Part shown: positions 275 through 63,400 of the stretch, piece after piece
Layout of the letters: each line of letters starts with the position of its first letter
How positions within the stretch are numbered: position 1 is the first letter of the stretch
Source of the DNA: Apostichopus japonicus
Taxonomy: Eukaryota > Echinodermata > Holothuroidea > Aspidochirotida > Stichopodidae
NCBI RefSeq assembly: GCF_037975245.1
Contig: NC_092580.1
Location: 26,935,501-26,999,500, forward strand
Direction: 5' to 3'
Length of the DNA stretch: 64,000 nucleotides
The notes under the pieces: model-generated
Databases searched by the model: none
The model's input: only the letters and a program-made list of their open reading frames with translations
Told to the model about the DNA's origin: nothing
Program-made: the position numbers and the translations under genes

Positions 275-3200
275 CTTAACATTATTCCGTTCATCCAGAA
301 AAATATTCTCCAGTTTTAAATCACGATGAACCACATTGTTCTGAAAAGAAAAACAGAAAAGGAAATGAAATGAAATTCATGATGAAACAAAAATTGCAAA
401 TAAGGCATTTATAAGCTTACATCCCAATTTTTTTTTAAGTGTTTAAATTATTATCTACTTGTTTTTGAGTAGGATATCGTTATCCAAAGTATTAAAGGCT
501 TTTGACAGCACAATTATATCACATACAAGCGAAACACTCAGATGACTATATTGCTTAGAATTTTGAATCAACAAAAAATTGGCAACACTTTCACAATCAT
601 TATTGAAAATGAATGCACATCATCACAATACTTCTTTTTTGTCTTTAAAGTACTTCTAAATTTAAAAATTAAAAGGTTTTGAATCCCTTCCTATTAAAAT
701 ATTTTGGCATTTCAATCTTTTTTATATTTCCCTGCCAGTCTTTTCAGTGTTCCTTTACGACAAAAATATTTCAATTTTCAAATTTGACATAAAGTACTTG
801 AAATTGTAGTTATGACCAGAAAAACTGACTGTGACACTATGTAGCAAACACAGACCAAGGTCGTCTGCTGACTGACAATGTGTATGACAAACAAATATTG
901 TGAATACTCTTGAAGAAAATCAAATGAACACACACGGAATGGTATAAGTCAGGTGATCAGTTTACCAAAAAGGACCCAGTCATCATGGAGGGAGAACAGT
1001 GGTAAGAGGTTACCAGATCACTCTTGAGGCGTGGGAGGGTAATTGACAAAGCGTAGTAAGAATTATAACCAAATGTTATGTATAAATTTATGACCATCTA
1101 CAACGTTACGTACGTCAAAAATGCTGCATTTCTTTAACTTTAGCCCCCTACAGCTTTTATGGGTGGAGAAATGGTGGTGGGGTGGGATAAATGATGGGCT
1201 GGAATTGCCCATCATCAGATACCTCTATGATACAAACAGTTGATAGTGGGTGAATTTAATTTCTGCTCGTACTACTACTCAAGTTCTCAGAAGACATACA
1301 CCACGTGATGGGAAGTGCCTAGAAATCCTGATGAGATGAACAGATTAAGGTTCCCCCTGACTCTCCATTACTGGTGTCTATATTTAACTTGTTAACATGT
1401 CACGAGCATATTAATTACCATATGACAGAATGCCACGGCAGATACTATCTGTCTGAACAGCCTCTGGACCTCCCCCTCGACTATGTCGTTCATGTCGGCG
1501 TAGTCGTAGAGCTCACCCCTGGATGCAAACTCCATCACCAGGACGATCTTCTCCTTGTTCTCAAAGACTGTGGATGAAGGGAGTGGAAAGGACACACATT
1601 GATGTAAAGAGAAATTACAAATGACGTGATAGCCTGGCTGACCAGTAATCGATGTCACGGCCAATTTATGTTACATTTAAAGAAGAACTTAGGCCTGTAA
1701 TGAATATGCAAACTATTTGAAAGGCAGCATTTGTATGAAACACGGTGTAATTTATATAGTTGTTTACGTTTTCCATTCATGAACACATTTTAGGTTTATG
1801 AACTTTGTTTATCATTAAATTGAAAAACACTAACAAAAGCATTAAACAAAAAAGGATGGATTTTTATGCTTTTCGGCCATGTTGTATACATGCCACTGTA
1901 TCTATATATATGCAAAGAAATGTTAGCAAAAGAGTGCAAGAGACCACAGAAATAACATGAGCAAAATCGGTGGGAATAAATGTCAAACTTTCCAAGTATA
2001 CTTTCAAATTTCCCAATACCAGTTGGGAAAAACTCTCTCCAGTCCTTACAACTGTACAGGTACCTTCAGTATCATTTCATCACATTCATGGCAACCTGAC
2101 TTTTTTTAATTGTCACATTTTCAATCACTGTTTAACCTCTACACATACACCAGATGAAGTGCACTGTAAAGGTACAACACTACTACAAACACTGCAACAC
2201 TGGGTCTTGCAATATGGCAAAACAAAACAGCACAAATATGTATGGCAATCTTTAAAAGTTCATCTAACAGCTTATTCCGATGATAAAACCTACAAAGAAA
2301 ACATCCGTTTACAGATTTCTCCTTCGATTGAAATATTTTGAATTACTTCAACTTCAATTTGACCTACTACGGTCCACACAACAAACCTGCTTGGCCTCAG
2401 AGCCATTAGGAAGTTACTTGTTTTTGTTTGTGCAATGGTACTGTACGTACATCTATATAACCAGGCTGACTCCATGCTTTGTGCATGTTTGTAATATCTC
2501 TGCACGGTTCTTGGAAACTAGTTGTTTCTCATTTCACTATTAATCACTTCACAGTATTTGGTGAAAGTAACTCCTGTCCTGATTGTGGTTTTACAAGAAT
2601 TTTGCCTCTTATGATGTATCAGATTTCAGATGTCAGCATTTCCCACCCTAACGTTCAAAATTCCTGTGATAATACCGCAACGATTTGGGATTGCTTGGGA
2701 TACACGTAGTTGACTATAAGGAATGGTAGATTCGGAAGGAAGAGAAAATGGGCAGTGTGCCGAAAGTAGGATATGATGGATGATGGAGCGCTAATACATT
2801 TCCGTGCAATGCAGTTTTTTCTTCTCCACACCTTTCTGTCTTTGTCCTTCCCTCCATCGTTTATCTCCTACCTCTCCTCTTCCCCTGTTGCTTTCTTCTC
2901 TCCATCCCTTGTCTACTAATCCCCTTACATGTATCTCATTGTGTTCACCGTGCTCCTTAACCTGTCTGTGTTCTGTGCATGTTTTTGTCCCTTCTGTTAC
3001 TGTTACTTGTCATTTAGCCTCTGAAGAAGATCCTGCTAGGATCGAAACGTCAGGCCAACTTACTTTTACACATTCTATTACACAGGCTCTATAGTGGATA
3101 AGCAGTTTGCTAACAGTTTTATTTTATTTCAATGCAGTTTTAGTTAGATAAAAGAGTGCAACTGTAGATTGGAGACTGGTCAGAGTGAAGCGAAGTCGAT

Positions 3201-6200
3201 TTTAGGATTTGCAGGTTCAAAAACCGATACAAAACTATTCTTCTTTTATAAACTCAACATAACTATGGCATAAATTGAAGGAAGGGGGCGATGGGTGTGC
3301 ATTTATGGTGAAACACTTGATTTTATACCCTCCCTGAAAAAGAAATGGTTCTAAGACACATAATGTGGCCGATGTCCAAGTACGTTTCAGTAAGATGAAG
3401 AGAAAGGGAGCTAGACATGAGGGGAGGAGGGGGGTGTAGGAGGGGGGAGTAGGAGGGGATAAGGAGGACACCTAATGAAGTGTTCCCTGAGGGTACATAC
3501 AAGAGCTATTACATTTGGTGACGATGAAACTACATATCAACCAAGATATGAGGAAGAAAACCATCTCAGAGACAGGGTTGAATAGAAGCAGACCCAAAAC
3601 ATGAGTTGTCCTAGTCCAGACTTGCCCCTCACTTTGAGAGCATTGAGGTTAAAATTTCACGAATTATATCATGGTTGCTATGCTATGCTATGCTATATAG
3701 TATTTCCTTACCGTTGTGAATAGCTATGATGTGAGGATGTACAGTACCATACTGGACATGATCTCAATTTCCTGTATCATGGTTGCTGTGCTATGATTTG
3801 CTGTGCTATGCTATGCTATTTAGTATTTTGTTACCTTTGTGTATAGCTATGATGTGGGGATGTACCATACTGGACATGATCTCGATTTCCTGTTTTATGG
3901 TTGCTATGCTATGCTATATGCTATGCTATGCTATTTCATTACCTTCGTGTATAGCTATGATGTGAGGATGTACCATACTGGACATGATCTCAATTTCCTG
4001 TATCATGGTTGCTATGCTATGATTTGCTGTGCTATGCTATGCTATTTAGTATTTCGTTACCTTCGTGTATATAGCTATGATGTGAGAATGTACTATACTG
4101 GACATGATCTCAATTTCCTGTATCATGGTTGCTATGCTATATGCTATGCTAAGATAGTATTTCGTTACCTTCATGTATAGCTATGATGTGAGGATGTACC
4201 ATACTGGACATGATCTCAATTTCCTGGTGAATTCGTCTCAAGTCCTCCGGATCTTTTATCTTGCTCTTTGGTACCGTTTTTATGGCAACCTGGAGGGGAA
4301 ATAGAATAAACTGATGATGGCCAAACTTACACACAGTATTACGTACTGTACCACCAATGTTCAACATATACCAAAAGTGCCGAGAGCAAGAAGAAATACT
4401 GCTCAAGCAACGCTGTTTAACATTTGACATGAAACACACATCAAGTGTGAACTGTCCACAATTCATCTTTCGATATAATTGCTAATTGTACAGTGTGTTT
4501 ATACCAAGACTCTTATCCAAACAGCAGTGACCTAGATTGCCTTCACTGCGATGTCATCACTTCCGAATAAATTACCTAGACAAGGAACATTTAATCAGCT
4601 GTCACCATCAATGGGGTGATGAGAGAGATCTTTAGCATAGATCTATTTTCTTACAGGAACTGCAAATACCAATGGTAAAATTTAAATCTATTCACACCAA
4701 AACGGAGGCCAGAGTGGCAAAAGAACAACATACATGAAGACCCAATACATTGTGTTCGATTTCAACATGTCTGAAACATTAAAAGCTGTGCAAGTCTTTT
4801 GTGGCCATACTGACAACACAGTGAGGAGACTAAAGAGTCAAATTTTGTATTGGTTGCCAGTGAATTAAATTACAACTGTCCTTACCCTTAATCAAATACG
4901 AACTGACAACCTCTTCTACTTGAATGAAAATCTTAAATTTATAGCCTTTAGAATTCCATTGGTCTTTTACAAAACTGTTCTAAATTGTGCCTTTTTTTCT
5001 TGAAACCTACAGCATTCGCTGGTATCATTTTGAAAATGCATAAAACAGTGTTGTATTTAGCTGAAGACAACTAGTTGAATAGCAACATTTTGAACACAAT
5101 GCGTTAAATATATGTTTTATGTTGGGATTCTAGTGGCCAATACAGTACAGCAACCTTTACTTGGAGTAAACATTATTTACCACCAGAGATGCCAAATAAA
5201 GTAATTTTCCAAGTTTCAATTTCCATTTACTAATGTCACTGACTGATTTATTACCCAAAGTACTGAACACAAATCCATCAAGTACATCGCTACAGTGATA
5301 ATAATTTGTGGTAAAATTTGTGAAGTTCATTAACGAAAATCTCTATAAATTGACCTCAAGGAGTGAAAACAATCAACTTGAAAGCAAAACAAGTTTTTAT
5401 TTCCTGCCTTTTGTCACTAAGATCTAAGAGCTGTTGATGGATTCAGAAGAGGTATTGAGAGGAAATGGTTTGATCCCTGACAACGATACCAGGAAATACT
5501 AATCACCCAATTGAACCTTTAATTTTGATAATTATCCTATAACATCATGGGAAAGAGTTCACCACTTTTGTTTTTAATCTTGAAACATTTGGAAAAACCA
5601 TTGGGACAGGCTAATTATGAGAACTATAACTACATTACTTGATATCTGCTAATATAGTATCAAAGCAAACACATGTATTACAGTACAATGTAATATGATT
5701 GCTGTAGTATTGTTTGACTCAATGTGATAGACAGATGGAACACATCATCACAGAAACGGCAACTAATAATGGTCTGTTCATCCTCCACGGCTTTCCTTTT
5801 CTCAGTTTACAGAGCTATCACTACAGGAAATTGATGTCACGTTGCTCAATTTGGAAACCAAAGGCCATAAATTAATGGTCAATTATAATATTACAGTAAG
5901 CAAATAATGTCGTACGTGCTACTTCCAGAAATTGTCCAATATTGTGAAACCAGCTGATATTGAGATATGTAGTTTTTTTTTCAAGTTCAATTAATATTGT
6001 GAATCTTGCAGAGAACAAACTTGGGCAATATAGTCAACAACTTGTATACATAAATATCAAAAGCCTATCACAGGTTATCATAAGTAAATAACCTGAGGGA
6101 TTGCTGTCATTTAAAATTACTGTGAAAAAGTAAGTTGGCCTGAGGTTTTGATCCTAGCAATATCTTCTTCAGAGGCTAAATGACAAGTAACAGTAACAGT

Positions 6201-9200: not shown

Positions 9201-10932
9201 GAGTGTATTGGTAGAATAGAGACAGGTATGAGATAAGAGCAAGTAAATTCACAAACAGAAGGTTAGGTAAATGGGATTGCGTACAGTATGTATAGGAGAC
9301 AGCCTGGTAAGAGAGGAATTAACTGAATTTTTAGTGAGCTTTGATGCTATCAATTTTTGGAGTTTCTAAAGGCAGATGTCGAACAGTTAGCCGATATAGA
9401 TTTGTTGATTGAAGTCTGAAAGCAGCAAAGCTAATGTATGTACTGTATATCAATGGCAGAAGAGTGAAGTGCTGAGAGATGGATGTAAACAAATTCAAAA
9501 GGGCAAAACAATTTCTGTCTGGAACAGGATTCCAACAAGCCACCTCAGAAATTCCAAAACTTAACCAGGTTGGGGTTCATTTTTTAACAAGGGACAGTCT
9601 TTCCTGATTCCCCCACAATGCAATTATGTTCAACCATGTAAAGAGTGAACTGGTCACTTTCTTAACATTGTGCCAGTACGCAGCAGTGAATGATCTGTCA
9701 TTTATCAAGCAATGTCCATCTCATGAGATCATCTCTCTCCCAAGCCACTCCCAATGTCCATCTCATGAGATCATCTCTCTCCCATAACACTCCCAATGTC
9801 CATCTCATGAGATCATCTCTCTCCCAAAACACTCCCAATGTCCAACTCATGAGATCATCTCTCTCCCAAAACACTCCCAATCAATGCCCATCTCATGAGA
9901 TCATCTCTCTCCCAACACACTCCCAATAACTCAGCAGCGAGCTATGTCTCCCCACACACTGATACTCAGGACCTCTCCACAGGCTATTGACACGTTACAC
10001 CTGTTATAGTATGGGAGCCAGCTTTAAGTCATGTCAGATGTAACCAATCACAGAGAAATGATTTTGCATGTGACCTAAAGGAGCAAAGGTTGTAATATAA
10101 TAAACAGAAAACAGTGAGCTTGAGTGTGCAGGGGGTACTGTAAGATGTAGACGACAATGGGTCTTGTTGACCATCAAACCAGTGGGTGGGTCACTCCAGC
10201 AAGTTAGGTTGTGTTCAGTCAGGCTTTGTGTATGACTGCTTTAGTGAACAATATTGCTGATGTTCATGTCAGACACTCCATGACTTTCATAGAGAACATT
10301 TCCATGGATTATTGTAGGTTGAGTTCGTAATGAAATTCAACCATATACCTGTACATGCATAAACTCATCTACAATACTGATTCTTGTAAATTGTTGTAAA
10401 TTGTTTCCTTTCTGCATTTCCTCTAGCAGTCATACTGTACGTGACATATAGCCACTGATAACCTGCTTTATTAACACTGATCAGCAAATCTATCTCGCCG
10501 GAATCATTTAACAAGATTACAGAGAAATTTGATCAAACTCTTCCACAAACGGAGATCTACGAATGACAGTTCTTCTATATAGAAAACCTTTACCTTTTCC
10601 ATTAATGTAATGAGAAACCATTTCAAACCATTACAGTTATTACATAAATGTAACCTAATGTAATAAATCAATCCACACTAATAATGTAATGTAGTCACAT
10701 ACCTGTTTGCCTGTCTCCAGTTCTGTGGCCTGTTTCACCTTGCCGTACGTGCCCTTCCCGAGCGTCCTCTCAAATTTAAAGCGGTGTTTCAACTTATGGT
10801 GGTGTCGATGGTGTTTAACACCAGACTTTCCATTGACCACCTTCACAGTCTCATTCGTCATAGCTGATGATGTGACCGTTGCACAGACTCAAGGAAATAA
10901 CAGAATTCTTCTTGCAGACAATATGTAGAGAC
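275..10932 (-). CDS. NUAK1: NUAK family Ser/Thr protein kinase, N-terminal part (gene continues beyond the left edge)
   Basis: AMPK-related Ser/Thr kinase. In the known family it is activated by LKB1 and acts in adhesion, polarity and stress signalling. Four coding exons fit in phase on the minus strand: 10861-10703, 4289-4169, 1567-1419 and 340-275, giving about 165 residues. Visible motifs are a basic His/Lys-rich N-terminus, the glycine loop LGKGTYGKV, the VAIK lysine, an alpha-C helix with REIEIM-like sequence ([19 protein letters not shown]), [20 protein letters not shown], and the catalytic-loop start [10 protein letters not shown]. The match to NUAK1/NUAK2 is strong through this region; which vertebrate paralogue is closer cannot be decided. 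The start is supported by an in-frame upstream TGA and a 71-nt 5' UTR whose acceptor (TTTTTCCAG) ends near 10933. The DFG motif, the activation loop and the C-terminus lie left of position 1. The 6.4-kb intron 1 and 2.6-kb intron 2 carry the repeats listed separately. Confidence 0.9.
2819..3129 (+). mobile_element. 5'-truncated retroelement copy with hammerhead-like core, inserted in NUAK intron 2
   Basis: A 311-bp insertion flanked by a perfect 12-bp direct repeat, CAATGCAGTTTT, at 2807-2818 and 3130-3141. This is read as a target-site duplication. The body is pyrimidine-rich, then contains a hammerhead-like core (3014-3058), then a tail ending in a T/A-rich stretch (ACAGTTTTATTTTATTT). A second copy lies at 6122-6421. 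No reverse transcriptase remains. Hammerhead motifs of this form are known from Penelope-like retroelements, so assignment to that group is an inference. It lies antisense to the host kinase gene. Confidence 0.72.
3014..3058 (+). ncRNA. Hammerhead ribozyme-like core inside the retroelement
   Basis: The sequence contains CTGAAGA (3021-3027), a 5-bp stem II (GATCC 3029-3033 with GGATC 3039-3043, loop TGCTA), then GAAA (3044-3047), CGTC ending at 3051, and a closing stem I (GCCT 3017-3020 with AGGC 3052-3055, extended past one A/C mismatch by TT/AA). The predicted cleavage site is after GTC at 3051. Stem III would be only ACGT (3047-3050), with no loop. Such minimal forms in Penelope-like elements are thought to act as dimers. 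The departure from consensus is one extra A (3028) between CTGAAGA and stem II. Activity is not shown. Confidence 0.55.
3712..4117 (-). repeat. Tandem array of four partial copies of NUAK exon 2, spaced by GCTAT microsatellite
   Basis: Four units of about 100-120 bp lie directly downstream (in gene sense) of the real exon 4289-4169. Each unit holds the 3' half of that exon plus its splice donor: 3712-3771, 3835-3889, 3943-3997 and 4061-4117. Units are separated by runs of GCTAT. The 3943-3997 copy encodes exactly the same 18 residues as the real exon (EIEIM to AIHE). The 3835-3889 copy is in frame with a final E-to-K change. The other two carry 4- or 5-bp and 2-bp insertions that shift the frame. 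All four keep a GT donor, and each is preceded by an ACAG where the authentic exon reads CCAG. Confidence 0.88.
6122..6421 (+). mobile_element. Second copy of the hammerhead-bearing retroelement, with a 5' inversion
   Basis: The insertion is flanked by an 11-bp direct repeat TTAAAATTACT (6111-6121 and 6422-6432). The part at 6122-6345 matches the body of the 2819-3129 copy in reverse complement. The part at 6346-6421 matches its 3' tail in forward orientation. The break falls in the TTACTTTT stretch that is continuous in the other copy. This is the structure expected of twin-primed target-primed reverse transcription. The hammerhead core is decayed here: GAAACGTC has become AAAACCTC and stem II is broken. 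Confidence 0.75.
6660..6678. repeat. (TA)n microsatellite
   Basis: Nine to ten TA dinucleotides in NUAK intron 1. The rest of that intron between 6680 and 9700 shows no exon and no clear repeat structure to my reading. Confidence 0.9.
9710..9923. repeat. 42-bp tandem repeat, five copies
   Basis: Five head-to-tail units start at 9710, 9752, 9794, 9836 and 9878; the last is four bases longer. Each holds CCATCTCATGAGATCATC and a CTCTCTCCC tail, so every unit has the palindrome CTCATGAG. Copies differ by only one to four bases, which indicates recent expansion. It lies in NUAK intron 1, about 0.8 kb from exon 1. The apparent ORFs on both strands through it are repeat artefacts. Confidence 0.92.
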
Positions 10933-52627: not shown

Positions 52628-55600
52628 ATGGCAGACCAGTTTTCTCGAAGCCTCCTCAAGGTGGCTATAGCCCAAATCTGCCAGGGTTTGGGATGGCATG
52701 CCATGCAATCAACGCCCTGCGACATTTTGGTTGACATAATGCAAAGATACATTGAGAAAACAGGACGCATCTCCTCACAGTATGCCGCCCAGTGTAAGTC
52801 TTGGCTATGTCAGTTTTAGATAAGTGGACAGTTTTTCACATTTTGTACCGAAAGTGAATGTGAAGGTCTGAAGATTTTCTTGTTTGTGTCTTTTTTTGGC
52901 TTTGTTATTCATTTTATTGTTTTGACATTCCATTGAAGGGGATCCCAGTGCTATATGAAGGAATTGTAGCACCAATGAAGGAGGTATAACCTTGTTTACG
53001 ATACTTCCAATTTTGATGTCAGCAGAATATCTTTGGTGAAGAGTGACGTTAGGCACGAAATTGATTTCAATAAGTTGTAGACCCTTAAAAAGCACTGAGC
53101 AGTATTAAGTAAACTTGAACTGCTGTACCACTTTTAACTTGATAGAAATGACCATTTTAACAGATGAGGCTCATCCGTTAAAATGGCTGGACTACTACTG
53201 TAAGTCTAACGCACAGACCGTCAGAGACACTGCATTGATTATAATGCTGAATATCCTGAAAAGAATAATATGTATGGAAACACCATACTAGCACTCAACT
53301 TTCGGCATTTTTCTTAGTCTATGTAATATCACAAACAAAAATGTTCCCTGGGGGGAAAAAAATTAACATGTAGGATTTGAATTTCAATATTACCGGTATG
53401 TAATAAACTGTGTTCTTCTTTATCATTTCAAAACCAGAAATAATCTCCGATTGATTTTTCCCTTTGAAATCTCTTTTCAGTCGGAAGAACGTTTGTTAAT
53501 CTCAATGACTTAGCGTTAGCCTTTGAGGATATGGGTGTGAATCTCTATGAGTTTGAAAACTATGTCCATGCGGTTGAACCCATGCCCTTCGTCCACGATG
53601 TGCCATCTTTCCCGATTCCCAAGAAGAACAACTTACAGCACCCACCTTCTGGATCCAGGCACTGCAGGGAACGTTTAGCCAGTATCCCAGAATACATGCC
53701 TCCCCTCGTTGGAGTTAAAGAAGGTTGGTAGCAACAAGTGTGTCAAGCAGGAATTAGGAGTTAACTTGAGCACAATATATTGCAACGAATCACAAAGCCA
53801 ACTGGCTTCCTGGTGCCCCTTGTATTGCTGTTTTCCGTCGTCAAGCCACTAAACATCGTAATAAAGCCCTATTGGACCGAATTTAAGGTCACTCAAACAG
53901 CTTTAGGAAACCCAGTTTAGATGATCAGTGTAATAGCATCGTTTCATAACATGGTTCTATAATATAGACAATAGAGGGATATAGCTTGTTGTAAACAATC
54001 CCAAAGTATTTCTGTTTACCCGGTAAAAAATTTGACCATCCATGAAAGTGTAGCTTTGAGTGTACGTAGGTTTTGGAATTTGTCTGATTCTCTAACCACT
54101 AAAATACGAGTAATTAAATTCTCGTCTATGAATGTTTATCTAAATGTTGACCCCTTTACGGGATCTAATCAAATTAGAATGCTTTTTCAATTATTTTTTA
54201 TTTGGGCGATAGATTTTACACCAATTCATGACCGGAGGGACAGTTTGTTTTCTAGCCTGTCCATGGATACGGACAGTCCAGAATTACTCTCTCCAACCGG
54301 ACAAGATAGCCTGGAGAAAAGAGGCGAAAAGAGAAGTCCCGATTATGTCGATCACTCTATCAAAAGGTTTCGTCTGGACAGCGAAGGGAACCTGCAGGAG
54401 GTTGTCATAGGTGCCGTAGAAGATTCAAATAAAAGAAGGGTCGGGAAACTGCCCGAGGCGGTCACACCTCCAAGGAGAACTAGCGTCATGATCCCAGAAT
54501 CCCATCAGAAGTCTGCCGTGACGCAGGCTCTCTCGATGGCTGGGAATACCACCAAGTCAAAGTCTCCGAAACAACAAAAATATGGTACTCAGGAAACTAA
54601 GGCCCCCAAAATGAGGTTACCAGTATCAACCAGTTCCTCCAAGGGACCTATTAAACCCCAGTCAAAGTCCCCCAAGCACCACCTCTTCAATCCCAACGGA
54701 CCTTCAAAATACCCGGTGAAAGTTAAGACTCCGGTCAATGTGGGAGTCATCCCCCAACCGAACCAAGCAGTGGAATTTAAACCTGCCAAGGGTTCAAAGA
54801 GTCAAAGGGCAAGCGGGGGCGCCATATCGACATTACTCTCGGCAGCCCTGCAGATTCAAGACGACGAGAACAAAAGCACCGTCCCTCCACCGAAGAAGAA
54901 GGACGAGGCGATGAGCATCTACGACTTCGACGACGACACGGAAGGGAAGGGTAAGGAAAACATGGCGGCAAAAGAAGCCAGCAGCGAGGGGTTGAAATCT
55001 CCGATCACATCCGGCGAGAGCAAGGCAGATCCGAACTCTCCCAGGGTCTACGACGAATACGAGATCGTGAGGACCACTTACCCGACGGAGGAAGACCCCA
55101 AGAAGGAGGTCAAGAAGAAAGAGAAAGGGAAAGTGCGGAAGAAGAAAGAGAAAGTGAAACAGAAGGATAAAAAGAAAGCCAAGGTCATCATAGATCAACC
55201 TCTGTTTCTTCCGGATGCGAAAGTCAAAGCCAAGGCGAATCCAGCGAAGGTGAAGAAGGCGGAAGAATTTCCCGAGCCGGAGGCCAAGCCCGCCCAGTAT
55301 TCCAGCTACGTCCCCCCTAAGAAAGGCCGACCGCCAAAGTTGGACATTTCTAAGTTTGTCAAGAAGGAACCCGCCGAGGAGGAGATTGAACCCACCCCTA
55401 AAATCGTCATCAAGACGGTAGGGAAGGAACAGAACGTGGTCAAAAAACCGAACAGGTCGCCGATAACTCTCAAAAAGACAAAGAAACTTGAAAAATGGAA
55501 GAAGAAGAAGTTTAAGAAGGACAGGTACAAAGTTACTCTGGGATTCGCCACGGAAAAAACAGGCAAGACGCTGACTTCTAAGTTTGGCTCGCCTTCTAAA

Positions 55601-58600
55601 CTCAGCAAGGACAAGCCAGTCAAAAAGTTAAACATCATCAAAACGAACAGCTCGAATCCGTTTCAGATCAAAATCTCTTCCCCGAAGGTGGAGCTGCCAG
55701 AACCTGAGGTGCCGGTCGTCAAGGAAAAGACCAAGAAGAAGAAGAAGATTAAGATTAAGGAGGAGAAAAAAGCAATCAAAGATGAAACATCAACATCAAA
55801 GTCAACCACAAAGGAGAAAGAGCAGGTATGTTCACACAAGGGGGTGGTATATCTTCTTCCTACGTGATATGTGACATTTACAACAACAAAGATTAAAGAA
55901 AAATAATAATAATAATAATAATTAATTAATAATAAATATTATTCCTGTCTTCAAACCATCAGGTAATGGCCAAGTGGTATCCCTGACGATTGTATATAAC
56001 TATGATCATCCATAGATACATAGGTTAGAAAAGAATATAAGTAGTAACAGGTGACCCCACTCACCTCCCTCCCCTCCAGACCAAAGATTAGTCTGATGTT
56101 TGTCAAGATACTGGCATATTATTATATATATTATTATTATTATTATCATATATAAAGCATATTCTGAATTTGACTTTCTGTAACTTTTCTGATCTTTGGA
56201 AAATGTACTTTATTTTCTTCAATTTTGCCGTTTCCTTTGATAGAAAGCACCAAAAAGTGAGACATCGAGTGGAAGTTCTGTGCCCAAGATCACCCTGAAA
56301 ATGGGTGGGAACACCGGTGATGGTAAATTGTGAGTATCATCTGGCTTGGATAACAGTTGCCTTCTCTCATAACACCAAACTGCAAATAAACTATTTTTTA
56401 TTTATGCAGTAACAACACAGGTATTGCTTTCTGCACCCTGAAGGGTTTAACAATATTTAATGTTTCTACAGAGCCAACTATTTCCCTCTGACATTTTAAC
56501 ACTATCGATATGAACATCACTACTTGTTTTGTTTTAAATCCACACTAAAGCCGTCTCGTACTCTTCTGCCAAGCCACATCTTTGCCAAACCTCAGTAGCT
56601 CTACAGCTGTCAAGTTTTCCCTGAAAAAAAAAGGAACAGTCAATCCCATTGGTTCATGACAGGCGTTTCTCAGACTACCGTCCAATCATATTGCATCGTT
56701 GTGAAAGCTCTGATGATTTTTCCTACTGTGTTACATGCTAACTCTGCAGTGAACAAATTAAATGGAAAAATGAAAAAATCCACGACCTGCCTCCAGAAAA
56801 TTTAAAGGACCTTTTACCATTCCCAGATCTAACAGGAGCAAGTAAAACACTATTAGAGCAGCTAGATCTAGTTCTGTAAGAATGGCCATAAATGTTTGAT
56901 ATACCATTCACTGTAGCCTAAAGTTAGCCCTGTCTGCTATCAGTAAACAAGTATTGCAATGGCCTGCTCTTTATTGTCTTTCCCACATACATGTCCATTT
57001 TCTTATACTTACCAATATCTTGTGGTATTTGATTGAATGGAATGTGGTCATTAAATTCTTGAAGTCAACAGTAAAATTGTGTGAATGGTAAAACTAACGA
57101 AGTTAATGTTGGCATAAAGGATTAAATTGGGGGTTAGCATGTGGTATAGTCAGCTAAATGGCTGATATTAAGTTTGCCAAAATGTTTGAACTCCAAGCTC
57201 AAGGTTGTTTTCCTGGATTTTCAAGACACTTGGGATCACCAAGTAGATACCATTTCTGGTTAGCCACAAAATAGCCAGACTGTTTGGTATCTTATTCCTC
57301 CAGCCTAGTCAACTATATATAACACATTGTAGAATTTATAGCTCTGTTGTTTGGTCAAGAAAGTCATCCCAAAATGAAGATGTTATTGAAACTTACAGAT
57401 TTATTTGACATATTTCCCCAAAAGCACAGATGCAAATGAAAGCATCTTCCAGGACAGCTGTTGAACTCCCAAATTGATTTTCTTCTTTCCTTCTTCTTTT
57501 TCCTTCTTTCCTTTCTTCAGCGTGATAAAGACAATTCGTCCTCCGTCGCCGTCCAGTGACAAGGATTCTCCGCCCTCCTCTCCCATACCGCTGCCACCTG
57601 TTCCCAAGATATCCATACCAGTCTTACCAGCCAAGAAATCAACCAAACCTTCCACTCCCAAGACACCGAAAGCCACGGTCAAGAAACCCTTGAAGGTCAA
57701 AGAGTCTAGTGTATTCGTCGATTCGTTGCCTCCCCCCACGAAACCAAGACAGAAGAACACCTCTGGAGGTAAAGGTTCATCGAAGACGGCCAAATCTAAG
57801 ACCGTCGACGTTCCTGTCAGCCCCAAAGGTAGAGGCAGGAAGAGTTCTGAGACGCCTACTCCAGGGGGCAAGAAAACTGGTACGAATAAATCGAGTCCGA
57901 AGAATTCATCGGTGTCGCCGACTGGCGCCAAATCAAGCTCTGCCAGTAAGGAGAAAGCTTCGGCCGGAAGCAAAGTCTCCCCGACCAGCAAGTCGGGTAA
58001 AGCCAAGGGTACCGGGAATCCTCCCGGAAGGCCACCTGGTAAATCTAGTAGTAAAGTGCCTGTTTCTCCTAAGATTGAAATCAAGGAACCACCAGCCAAG
58101 AAATCGGCAGAGAAACCAGCAAAGAAAGAGAAAGTAGCAGCCGTTGCACCTCCTCCTCCACCGCCTAAGACGGAAGATGTTCCCATGACGATAATGACCG
58201 AAACCTTGGGAACGTTTGTGGTATGTCTCAAAAAGTTTTCCTTTTATGAAAGATAAACTAGCTATTTTGTCACAGATCAGATGAGGATCAGCAGATGAAG
58301 TTCAGTTGCCATGTAGCTGTTATGGTTGAAATAATTTTTACCCGAAATTTAACATAAACGCCTCAAGCGTTCTTTCTTGATAGTTCATGTTTATAAAAGC
58401 TCTCAGCTGGATTTATTGACACATAACCATTGGGTAATGGGTAATGGCATTAAGAGAGGAGAAAAACAGAACTTCAAAAAAAGTAGACACTTTTGTACGC
58501 TCTGTGCATTTACGCCAAGTAAGTCGTGAGGGGTGAGGGGCGGGAGTAAGCGGAGTAAGCGGGAGCAGCTCCATTTTAATGGAGCTGCACTTGTGTTCAT

Positions 58601-60499: not shown

Positions 60500-63400
60500 T
60501 CAATTGGTGATCTCTTTCACTTATCTTGATCATTTATCTGCCATGTTTGTTAGGTACTTTACATTTCAGTGAGTACCTTTAAAATATACTAATTTAATTT
60601 TTCAATAGTTTAATTTAATAAATTGGGCTATTAGAATTTCTAACATTTTGAATATTAAATTTGAAGGATAGAAGCAAAATTTTTCCAAGTATCAATCATT
60701 TGTGATTATGCCGATGTAATCAAACTTACTCTGTATATTGGCTTGAGTCTTGGTGCAGTAGAAGACAAAAGTAAAGAAGCACCACCAGCTGCAATTAACA
60801 TGCAAAATAAATCTCACACGAAACGAATACTAATTAACAACAAACAAATTAACAAACAAAACAATTGTTTTTAGAGTATCATCAACTTGTTTTTATTTTG
60901 TAAGACACTGACAAATGAGGTACTCACTTTCATGTCATTCATTTTCAATGAATTTTAAGTGGTGAATTTATACAACCAATATTATATGATATAATAATCA
61001 TTTAAATTACAATTCTCATCAACCTTTGACACACACCAAATGCTTGCTAAAGAACCGCTGTGAAAAGTGGAATTAGGTGCGAAAACAATGTTGGAAACCT
61101 GCGGTATTAAATATTGAAGTGAGGCGAATGCCCTGGGCATATATAAAAACAAGGGCATGATATGATGGGAATTTAGAAGTGTAAACAGTGCAAAGGATTT
61201 GACCTTGCCATGTGAAGAAATTAAGGCAAAATTTGGGGAAATCAACATTTTGGGACACGATAGTTTCACATCTGAAAATGAGATAATTAGTATTTTGGTA
61301 AGTTTCACAAAAATAATTGGAACCATCTGTCAACAAGAAAAGCAACAGCAGTTGTTAAATCCTGTTACAAGTCTGAATCAATATCAAACAAGATATATTA
61401 TCTCTGCAGACCATTTGTACCTCTCACAGTTGTACCTTATGTACACTTGTACTTAATGTCCTGGACAGCCCTGGTTTAAGAGATGCCACAGCCCCCTCAA
61501 CGCCCAACCTTTGACATGGCACCTTAACCCTTAATGATGGCATCGAATGAGGTCTTCCTCATATTTATCTCAAGAATGTAATAATGGGTAAAAAGAGTAA
61601 CAAAGAGAAAAGTTAACGAATAGGTACAAAGTATCAACTTTGTACAAAAGACAAGGTTATTTGAGGAAGGCTATGTGGTACTTTTGTGCGATGCAGTTTC
61701 TCAAGATTTTAAAATCAGAAAGAGCTGTTCTCTCCATGAGTATCCACTCTGGATGATTGATATCGGATGATGAAGTTTAAAGCATCCAGCCACATTCTTG
61801 CAATAATCAGTTATTACGACGGTTAACGCCTTAGGCTTGACCAGACTACCCTGCATATCGCTCATTCTAGTTATAGTGTATTATTTAGGCTTGAGCACCC
61901 TACCAGACTACCCTGCATATCGCTCATTCAAGTTATATGTATGCCTTAGGCTTGAGCACCCGACCAGCCTACCCCATATATAGCTCATTCTAGTTATAGC
62001 GAGATTTTGATTCTGTCCAACCCTATTCTCCAACCAATGTTTGTCCGTCCCTCGTAGAAAATCCATTGAGAACCGCTGTTGTAAAGGAAGCACAGTTAAG
62101 CTGGACAAAAAATGTGTTAAGTCTGATAAATACCAAAGGTAATTCTGATTATTCCTTGGATAACTTTACCTTTCTTATAAGGTTAGCAAGAACAACAAAC
62201 TTGGCTGTCCAACAAGACTAACGTATAATGGAAAGAATAAATGATTGCATTTGCTTTACGTGTTCAAGGAAGGGTTTGGTTTGTGGCTGCACCACTCATA
62301 TCTGTCTGTAGATTTTAAATCATTCCAACCACCTACACCATTCAACCTTACAATATGAATACCTTTAAATGTGAAGAAAAGAACGATCATAATAAAAATG
62401 AAAAAAAAATTAATAAAGAACAGATAAATCAAGGTACACCTTAACACTTGGCATTACTCAATATACACCAAAATAATATAAGAAAAACGAAAAATAAATC
62501 TAAAAATTTTCCTTTATAAGTAAACTTTGCCATGGGCATGACATTTAAACAAAGGAATGGATATGTTATAATAATGTATAATAACAGTTCTAATTTACAA
62601 CCTCTATTAAAAAATGGAATGTTCCTACATTTTTAGTTAGTAACTGCAGAGCTGGCTATGTTTTGTCTTTACCAACACCATTCATTATATTTTTAGGATG
62701 CATTCAATGTCGAATTTTCAAAAAGATTTTATTCTTGCTTACTTATGAGAATAAATTGTAATATGCATGTATGTCTCATGCATCGACTTTAGTAAATATA
62801 TTCATTTTAAGTTTGTTGGTTTCTGCATGTTAGTTTAAATTACAAAATAACTTTTCAATTACTTAACCATCCATTCTTCCCAGACCAGGGATGCAAAAAT
62901 TATATTTCTGTTTCTTCACATTTATTTTTCACTATATTTAAAAAAAAAATTATACTTAGCAATTTAATTTATTTCCAATTACTTCTAAGGCATTTCAAAA
63001 TATCACACTAAAGAACAATTGTTCTGACAGGAAGTTTTCTTTAGACCACTAATAGTAGTGAGAGACACAACACACAGCACTAACATGACCAAACTGAGCT
63101 GACACAAAATATTCTAGAAATTATCTAAGAAAATACACCATGTGATTTACAAAGGATGAAATTTGTAGGCCTACCTATGCTACATTCCTTCAGGTATAAT
63201 TCTTTGTTTTAAATTATGGTAAGTGGATAACGATGTTTTCTAAAGACCTTCACATAGAGAAGGGTTGCCATATTTATTTTTATAGTAATGGTGTATCACT
63301 CCCTAATTAGGAACAAGCAAATGTGGATGGTAGCCACATAAATCACTAAGTTAGAAATGAGTCATTATCCAATAATGCATGAATATTCATTGGATATGGC

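Follow-up and report, generated by a model that had tools for sequence, protein, structure and literature searches.

The NUAK-type gene and its exons

The window analyzed here is a stretch of 64,000 nucleotides from Apostichopus japonicus (C20:26935501-26999500) which carries a gene for a NUAK-type kinase on its minus strand. In keeping with this origin, the joined arginine-kinase exons of the genome match, over 276 of 276 residues, PDB chain 3ju5_A, which comes from A. japonicus. The exons of this gene within the window, in window coordinates and in the direction of the gene, are:

10861-10703, minus strand: NUAK exon 1, coding part (MTNETVKVV...), ends in phase 0, donor CAG/GTATGT
4289-4169, minus strand: NUAK exon 2, 121 nt, phase 0 to phase 1, 40 residues plus G
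1567-1419, minus strand: NUAK exon 3, encodes ...FCHM
340-275, minus strand: NUAK exon 4, 22 residues

Exon 1 contains a putative start codon at 10861 and encodes the glycine loop. The phases of exon 2 (0 at its start, 1 at its end) were obtained by joining it with exons 1 and 3; its acceptor is TTATTCTATTTCCCCTCCAG/G and its donor is AAG/GTAACG. If exons 1-4 are joined, no stop occurs in the reading frame. The gene continues to the left of the window, where the adjoining stretch (L030) contains three further kinase exons.

A Pfam match to Pkinase (PF00069) extends over exons 2 and 3. With the kinase domain of human NUAK1 as tblastn query, the exons in the window reached 60, 62.5, 57 and 59% identity and those in L030 68, 45 and 62%. 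With this kinase-domain likeness of 45-68% per exon, the identification as NUAK by the sequence-only reading is taken to be right; the name of the gene depends on this comparison with the human domain. Among the best 60 of 395 matches to solved structures, SIK3 and MARK are the closest relatives.

Further features were observed in the window. Intron 2 of NUAK contains a 36-nt motif, CTGAAGAAGATCCTGCTAGGATCGAAACGTCAGGCC (3021-3056, plus strand), which has 3,933 matches in the genome at two or fewer mismatches, 1951 forward and 1982 reverse. As the reversed-pattern control gave 0 matches, it is regarded as part of an abundant dispersed element. A second minisatellite lies in NUAK intron 1 (9710-9927; 42-nt unit, 5.1 copies, 91% matches) and another tandem repeat at 61839-61999 (61-nt unit, 2.6 copies, 86% matches). 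Long Lys/Pro-rich open frames occur on the plus strand at 53975-55867 and 57465-58256, and are reminiscent of TAF3; Pfam gave no match for the neighboring frame at 53468-53731.

Layout of the array

A tandem array was located at 3667-4226 by Tandem Repeats Finder (score 879), and a repeat search found a 72-nt core in five copies with spacings of 123, 108, 120 and 106. The array consists of five head-to-tail units of 106, 120, 108, 118 and 108 nt, namely the tail of exon 2 and four copies of it. The copied segment takes in the 58 nt before the end of exon 2 and runs on through the donor into the intron for approximately 50 nt:

4226-4121, minus strand: unit u0, source unit with the 58-nt tail of exon 2, the real donor and the intron start
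4120-4001, minus strand: unit u1, 120 nt; pseudo-exon c1 at 4117-4061; donor AAG/GTAACG, equal to the real one
4000-3893, minus strand: unit u2, 108 nt; pseudo-exon c2 at 3997-3943; donor AAG/GTAATG
3892-3775, minus strand: unit u3, 118 nt; pseudo-exon c3 at 3889-3835; donor AAG/GTAACA
3774-3667, minus strand: unit u4, 108 nt; pseudo-exon c4 at 3771-3712; donor ACG/GTAAGG
3666-3650, minus strand: single-copy intron, begins TAATTCGTGAAATTTT and marks the intron-side breakpoint of the founding duplication

Within a unit CAG comes first, followed by 55-60 nt resembling the terminal 55 nt of exon 2 and by GT; a spacer of the TAGCA type and AACCATGATA then close the unit, u2 ending in AACCATAAAA instead. 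The junction of u3 reads AAAACAG instead of GATACAG. Before the first unit the exon goes on (...GAATTCAC/CAGGAA), and after the fifth unit single-copy intron follows (CCATGATA/TAATTCG).

Tandem copies of the exon tail and its donor directly after the real exon 2 had been proposed from the sequence alone and are confirmed, four in number, as are the GT at the donor and the ACAG in front of every copy. The extent of the copied segment is a different matter: the exon tail with its donor was indeed copied, but the AG in front is the internal CAG (Gln) codon of the exon and no copied acceptor. The acceptor and the first 63 of the 121 nt of exon 2 are missing from all four copies.

By its head-to-tail units the array belongs with the minisatellites (units of roughly 10-100+ nt), and, as in repeats of the CBS type, the unit covers an exon end, a 5′ splice site and an intron start. 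In a tandem (mutually exclusive) exon duplication the whole exon with both splice sites would be copied; since the acceptor side is missing, the array is not a usual case of this kind.

Coding content of the copies

The first copy, c1, is 57 nt long, has two additional nucleotides (TA) and carries two missense changes. Copy c2 (55 nt) encodes the same 18-residue peptide as exon 2 with one silent difference, c3 (55 nt) has its final Glu replaced by Lys, and c4 (60 nt) has five additional nucleotides. Two of the four copies (c1 and c4) are therefore frameshifted by their insertions, and the peptides count as previously read: one identical, one with a single-residue change and two out of frame. 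The copied peptide begins at the glutamate after HQ, presumably the alpha-C glutamate. Copies c2 and c3 lead from phase 0 to phase 1 and are open to exon 4; c1 and c4 alone are not.

On the strand opposite to the gene, a 118-codon frame (3824-4180, plus strand) extends across the array without a stop and is most likely a by-product of the repeat.

Scoring of the splice sites

For the scoring of splice sites we used donor and acceptor matrices of human base frequencies, calibrated on introns of the same genome. The controls were 32 donors and 32 acceptors. Ten of the control introns came from arginine kinases and were placed by a spliced aligner, 16 came from PGK, enolase and pyruvate kinase and were placed against the PDB chains 1vjc, 1te6 and 3bjf, and NUAK itself contributed six donors and six acceptors, placed by eye and including the natural exon 2 donor. 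Three of the five introns of one stretch (L023) were excluded as misplaced, which reduced the arginine-kinase introns from 13 to 10. Also excluded, as an aligner error, were the enolase rows at residues 121 and 124, which enclose an exon of 8 nt; this reduced 18 introns to 16. One of the two rows had the lowest acceptor (−11.39, 35% pyrimidine, AG 3 nt upstream), and its inclusion would blur the separation reported below. The myosin stretches L024-L029 were left out of the control set. The first 13 control acceptors were fully separated from the copies by score. Three further NUAK acceptors (0.14, 2.32 and −1.90) ended this separation, and the control set was therefore enlarged to 32 and a weaker claim made.

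On the same contig two 989-residue frames with three guanidino-kinase domain matches each were observed approximately 31 kb apart and with near-identical scores (C20:18443595-18446393 and C20:18474619-18477417). They probably arose when a phosphagen kinase gene with three domains was recently duplicated in tandem.

Donors of the copies

The donors of c1 to c4 scored 3.13, 2.69, 2.18 and 5.67, compared to a control median of 4.96 (n = 32). The number of control donors scoring no higher was 8, 6, 5 and 20 out of 32, respectively, so all four copies possess a credible 5′ splice site inside the control range. The natural exon 2 donor, itself among the 32 controls, scored 3.13 and lies in the lowest quarter of the controls together with c1-c3. 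To speak of a “spare donor” may be an overstatement for these three, given that position. The donor of c4 (ACG/GTAAGG) has the top score of the 158 GTs in intron 2, the natural donor counted.

One way to read this is that the array acts on splicing by its donors. The spare donors, with the strong last one (ACG/GTAAGG) foremost, would draw U1 away from the weaker natural donor, and the repeat number would in this way tune the productive NUAK message, which we consider rather unlikely; off-target use would yield stop-containing messages. The position of all four donors inside the control range, the identity of the c1 donor to the real one and the higher score of the c4 donor compared to the natural one (5.67 vs 3.13) argue for competition, and a human precedent is provided by the CBS 31-bp repeat across an exon-donor boundary (PMC2630376, PMC5188458). 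Against it, two of the copy donors, c2 and c3, are by score weaker than the natural donor, and no sign of selection on the donors was seen. The rival donors also lie 108-457 nt farther downstream and would define exons of 229-578 nt, which exon definition should disfavor.

Acceptors of the copies

The acceptors of c1 to c4 scored −2.06, −2.06, −4.90 and −1.89, while the controls had a median of 4.78 and a minimum of −1.90 (n = 32), and the natural exon 2 acceptor reached 9.20. As low as c1, c2, c3 and c4 were 0, 0, 0 and 1 of the 32 control acceptors. The weakest control, about equal to c4, is the acceptor of NUAK exon 7 (−1.90), whose position was set by eye with the frame as guide, so that the score taken by itself is still compatible with use of a copy. 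Only two properties separate copies and controls completely, the share of pyrimidines and the distance to the previous AG. Over the 20 nt scored the copies contain 35-40% pyrimidines (control minimum 50%, median 75%, n = 32), and their nearest previous AG is 14 nt away (32 controls: minimum 20, median 42.5). With regard to pyrimidine tract and AG exclusion zone, none of the four copies has a credible 3′ splice site. Other AGs in the array were considered as acceptors and rejected; the best, at 3723, scored 0.76 and stays below the top three of intron 2 (5.94, 5.68 and 5.62), yet exceeds three of the 32 control acceptors (0.14, −1.76 and −1.90), and is thus weak without being impossible.

The description of each copy as looking like a 55-60-nt pseudo-exon holds for the donors, which are in the range of real ones, and is weak for the acceptors, which in pyrimidine content and AG spacing fall outside all 32 controls. 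The scoring suggested along with it gave the same division, with four of four donors in the control range but three of four acceptors below every control and that of c4 tied with the weakest. The suggestion that the copies could be splicing decoys holds for the donors only. This combination of poor acceptors and usable donors arises because the duplicated segment takes in the donor and not the acceptor. Since the segment does not reach the acceptor of exon 2 or the pyrimidine tract that belongs to it, the copies fall short of proper exons. Judged from their sequence, the copies are donor decoys in potential, and not credible exons.

Predicted consequences of use

If exon 2 were extended to the donor of a copy it would measure 229, 347, 455 or 578 nt, and in all four cases a stop follows after HEGNEILS, which agrees with the competition of donors outlined above. 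If a single copy is added after exon 2, the frame ends in HEGN and an immediate TGA for c1, c2 and c4, and for c3 in a frameshift that ends with SL and a stop in exon 3. A premature stop, as expected of a poison or pseudo-exon, is thus predicted for every copy. Among 11 combinations of several copies none is open after exon 2; if exon 2 is replaced, only c1+c2 and c1+c3 are open. The frame also stays open if c2 or c3 alone takes the place of exon 2, with the loss of 22 residues including the catalytic-lysine motif.

Inclusion of one copy behind exon 2, as a poison or cassette pseudo-exon that kills the message, would fit these stops and the flanking of all four copies by AG and GT. We regard it as very unlikely, because the acceptors have no pyrimidine tract and an AG 14 nt upstream, unlike all 32 controls, and because three of the four score below every control while the fourth ties with the weakest. 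A further arrangement would lead from exon 1 over c2 or c3 to exon 3, and would give an in-frame, kinase-dead NUAK without the VAIK lysine. The phases permit this, exon 1 ending in phase 0 and c2 and c3 having the same start and end phases (0 and 1) as exon 2, and the joins with c2 and c3 stay open through exon 4, as do c1+c2 and c1+c3. For such a choice the strong acceptor of exon 2 (9.20) must be skipped in favor of −2.06 and −4.90. Moreover, c1 and c4 are not open when joined alone, so that the array as a whole has not preserved this ability; we hold such a choice to be extremely improbable.

Selection and RNA structure

Compared with the sequence of c2, the copies show eight substitutions in 232 exon-derived sites, by hand count five amino-acid changing and three silent, while the possible single changes are 133 amino-acid changing to 29 silent. 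No selection on the copies was detectable in the one assembly, where eight substitutions are too few to decide. Coding constraint was considered and set aside: a ratio of 5:3 against a possible 133:29 comprises too few changes, and two of the four copies carry out-of-frame insertions. At the observed rate of 8/232 per site the chance of all 16 GT/AG bases staying untouched is 0.57, and the intact GT and AG are therefore not evidence of function. Two observations speak against neutrality: two of the four copies keep an intact 18-residue peptide, and u3 has three substitutions of which two are silent. The copies nevertheless appear neutral, on the basis of one assembly and a handful of changes. 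A role of RNA structure was also rejected, as the array folds no better than its shuffles (z −0.29; 7 of 20 shuffles at least as good).

Origin and uniqueness of the array

The founding joint, CCATGATA/CAGGAAATT (CCATGATA/CAGG), has no evident microhomology. It is situated about 10 nt past the GCTAT microsatellite and thus outside it, and for this reason the first duplication does not look microsatellite-mediated. The sequence-only reading had assumed amplification through the microsatellite; this does not suit the founding step, but may apply to later ones. The spacers of u1 and u3 are identical in 58 of 60 intron columns (two substitutions, no gap), and share an extra segment which u0, u2 and u4 lack. 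The segments 3744-3845 and 3970-4071 are, moreover, 97% identical, and both observations point to a block of two units having been duplicated at a later step.

Searches of the assembly (671,581,487 bases, 35 contigs) revealed no second array. A 661-base DNA query returned, in a search that skips simple repeats, itself and two short overlapping places on contig C11, which are pentanucleotide repeats. A 19-residue peptide query matched the array as the sole place in the assembly, and the spacer pattern occurred at four places in the array and one on contig C4 with one mismatch. A dispersed element as source of the array was rejected, the three kinds of query matching elsewhere only the C11 pentanucleotides and the one-mismatch C4 spacer. 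Equally rejected was a second NUAK gene as source of the copies: in a protein search with identities given for the best candidates only, exons 2 and 3 of the window match at 95-96%, and the remaining 26 of 28 matches at 22-59%.

Tandem repeats are a known source of assembly errors, and a single assembly stands behind the array, so that the assembler might have stuttered a single exon tail. This is highly improbable. The exon-derived parts differ in every pair of the five units, and the copies have private changes including the +2 and +5 nt. Moreover, the published A. japonicus assembly, which this one appears to be, was made with hifiasm from approximately 64-fold HiFi reads of 14.7 kb mean length (PMC10344927), a length far above that of the 560-bp array.

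Proposed course of events

We consider the array to be probably an intronic minisatellite with spare 5′ splice sites, and an ordinary drifting repeat that at most supplies additional donors. A segment of about 108 nt across the boundary of exon 2 and intron 2 was copied in tandem with blunt breakpoints, as the junctions show. This founding segment joined the 58-nt tail of exon 2 and its donor to the first part of intron 2, TAGCA microsatellite included. Expansion to five units presumably followed, at least once by a two-unit block, to which the alternating spacer types point. By the scoring, the copies amount to four additional 5′ splice sites in series, downstream of a natural donor of mediocre strength. 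The normal message presumably uses the own donor of exon 2, and an occasional use of a spare donor would lengthen exon 2 until the in-frame TAG after HEGNEILS is reached, as the frame predicts; such transcripts would be destroyed or truncated. Meanwhile, the copies would drift neutrally.

Comparison with known repeats and duplications

By analogy, the closest parallel of the array is the 31-bp VNTR of human CBS, reportedly described by Lievers in 2001. In both, the unit contains an exon end, the 5′ splice site and the adjoining bases of the intron, and every unit thereby contributes one more donor. The CBS repeat is placed at the boundary of exon 13 and intron 13 as c.1444_1467+7(16_21) (PMC2630376), and a higher repeat number is reported to go along with lower CBS activity (PMC5188458). 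The CBS repeat has 16-21 units of 31 bp and is polymorphic, whereas our array has five units of 106-120 nt, comes from one assembly and contains a microsatellite spacer. A copy-number dial on NUAK, in which the spare donors behind a weak natural one, with the strongest at the far end, divert part of the transcripts into stop-containing forms and the repeat number differs among sea cucumbers, is in our view unlikely.

The tandem duplicate of COE/EBF exon E13, which is included in vertebrate transcripts, shares with our array a coding duplicate beside its parent exon and an intron phase that sets the readable combinations (PMC2394523). It is a duplicated exon that is included there, in contrast to the exon tail and donor alone, copied four times, here. 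In the AGGT model of intron gain (potato RdRp) a local tandem duplication likewise makes AG/GT pairs from exon sequence, but the duplicate has an acceptor side, pyrimidine tract and branch site (PMC4974935), while our array has the donor side. Because the copies have this donor side without an acceptor side, no new intron is expected from them. With ordinary intronic minisatellites, as generally known, the array shares head-to-tail units (here 106-120 nt), block duplication and private changes; it differs from them in that half of each unit is conserved coding sequence plus donor. None of the papers listed by literature searches has a title naming this locus, and the one paper found with both NUAK and sea cucumber is a chicken study.

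As it stands, the array is most likely an inert intronic repeat. It presents a clean natural case in which a partial tandem duplication over an exon end creates plausible donors without plausible acceptors, and it separates what looks like an exon from what can be spliced as an exon. Should the repeat number vary and alter the NUAK output, the human CBS repeat would have a counterpart in an invertebrate.
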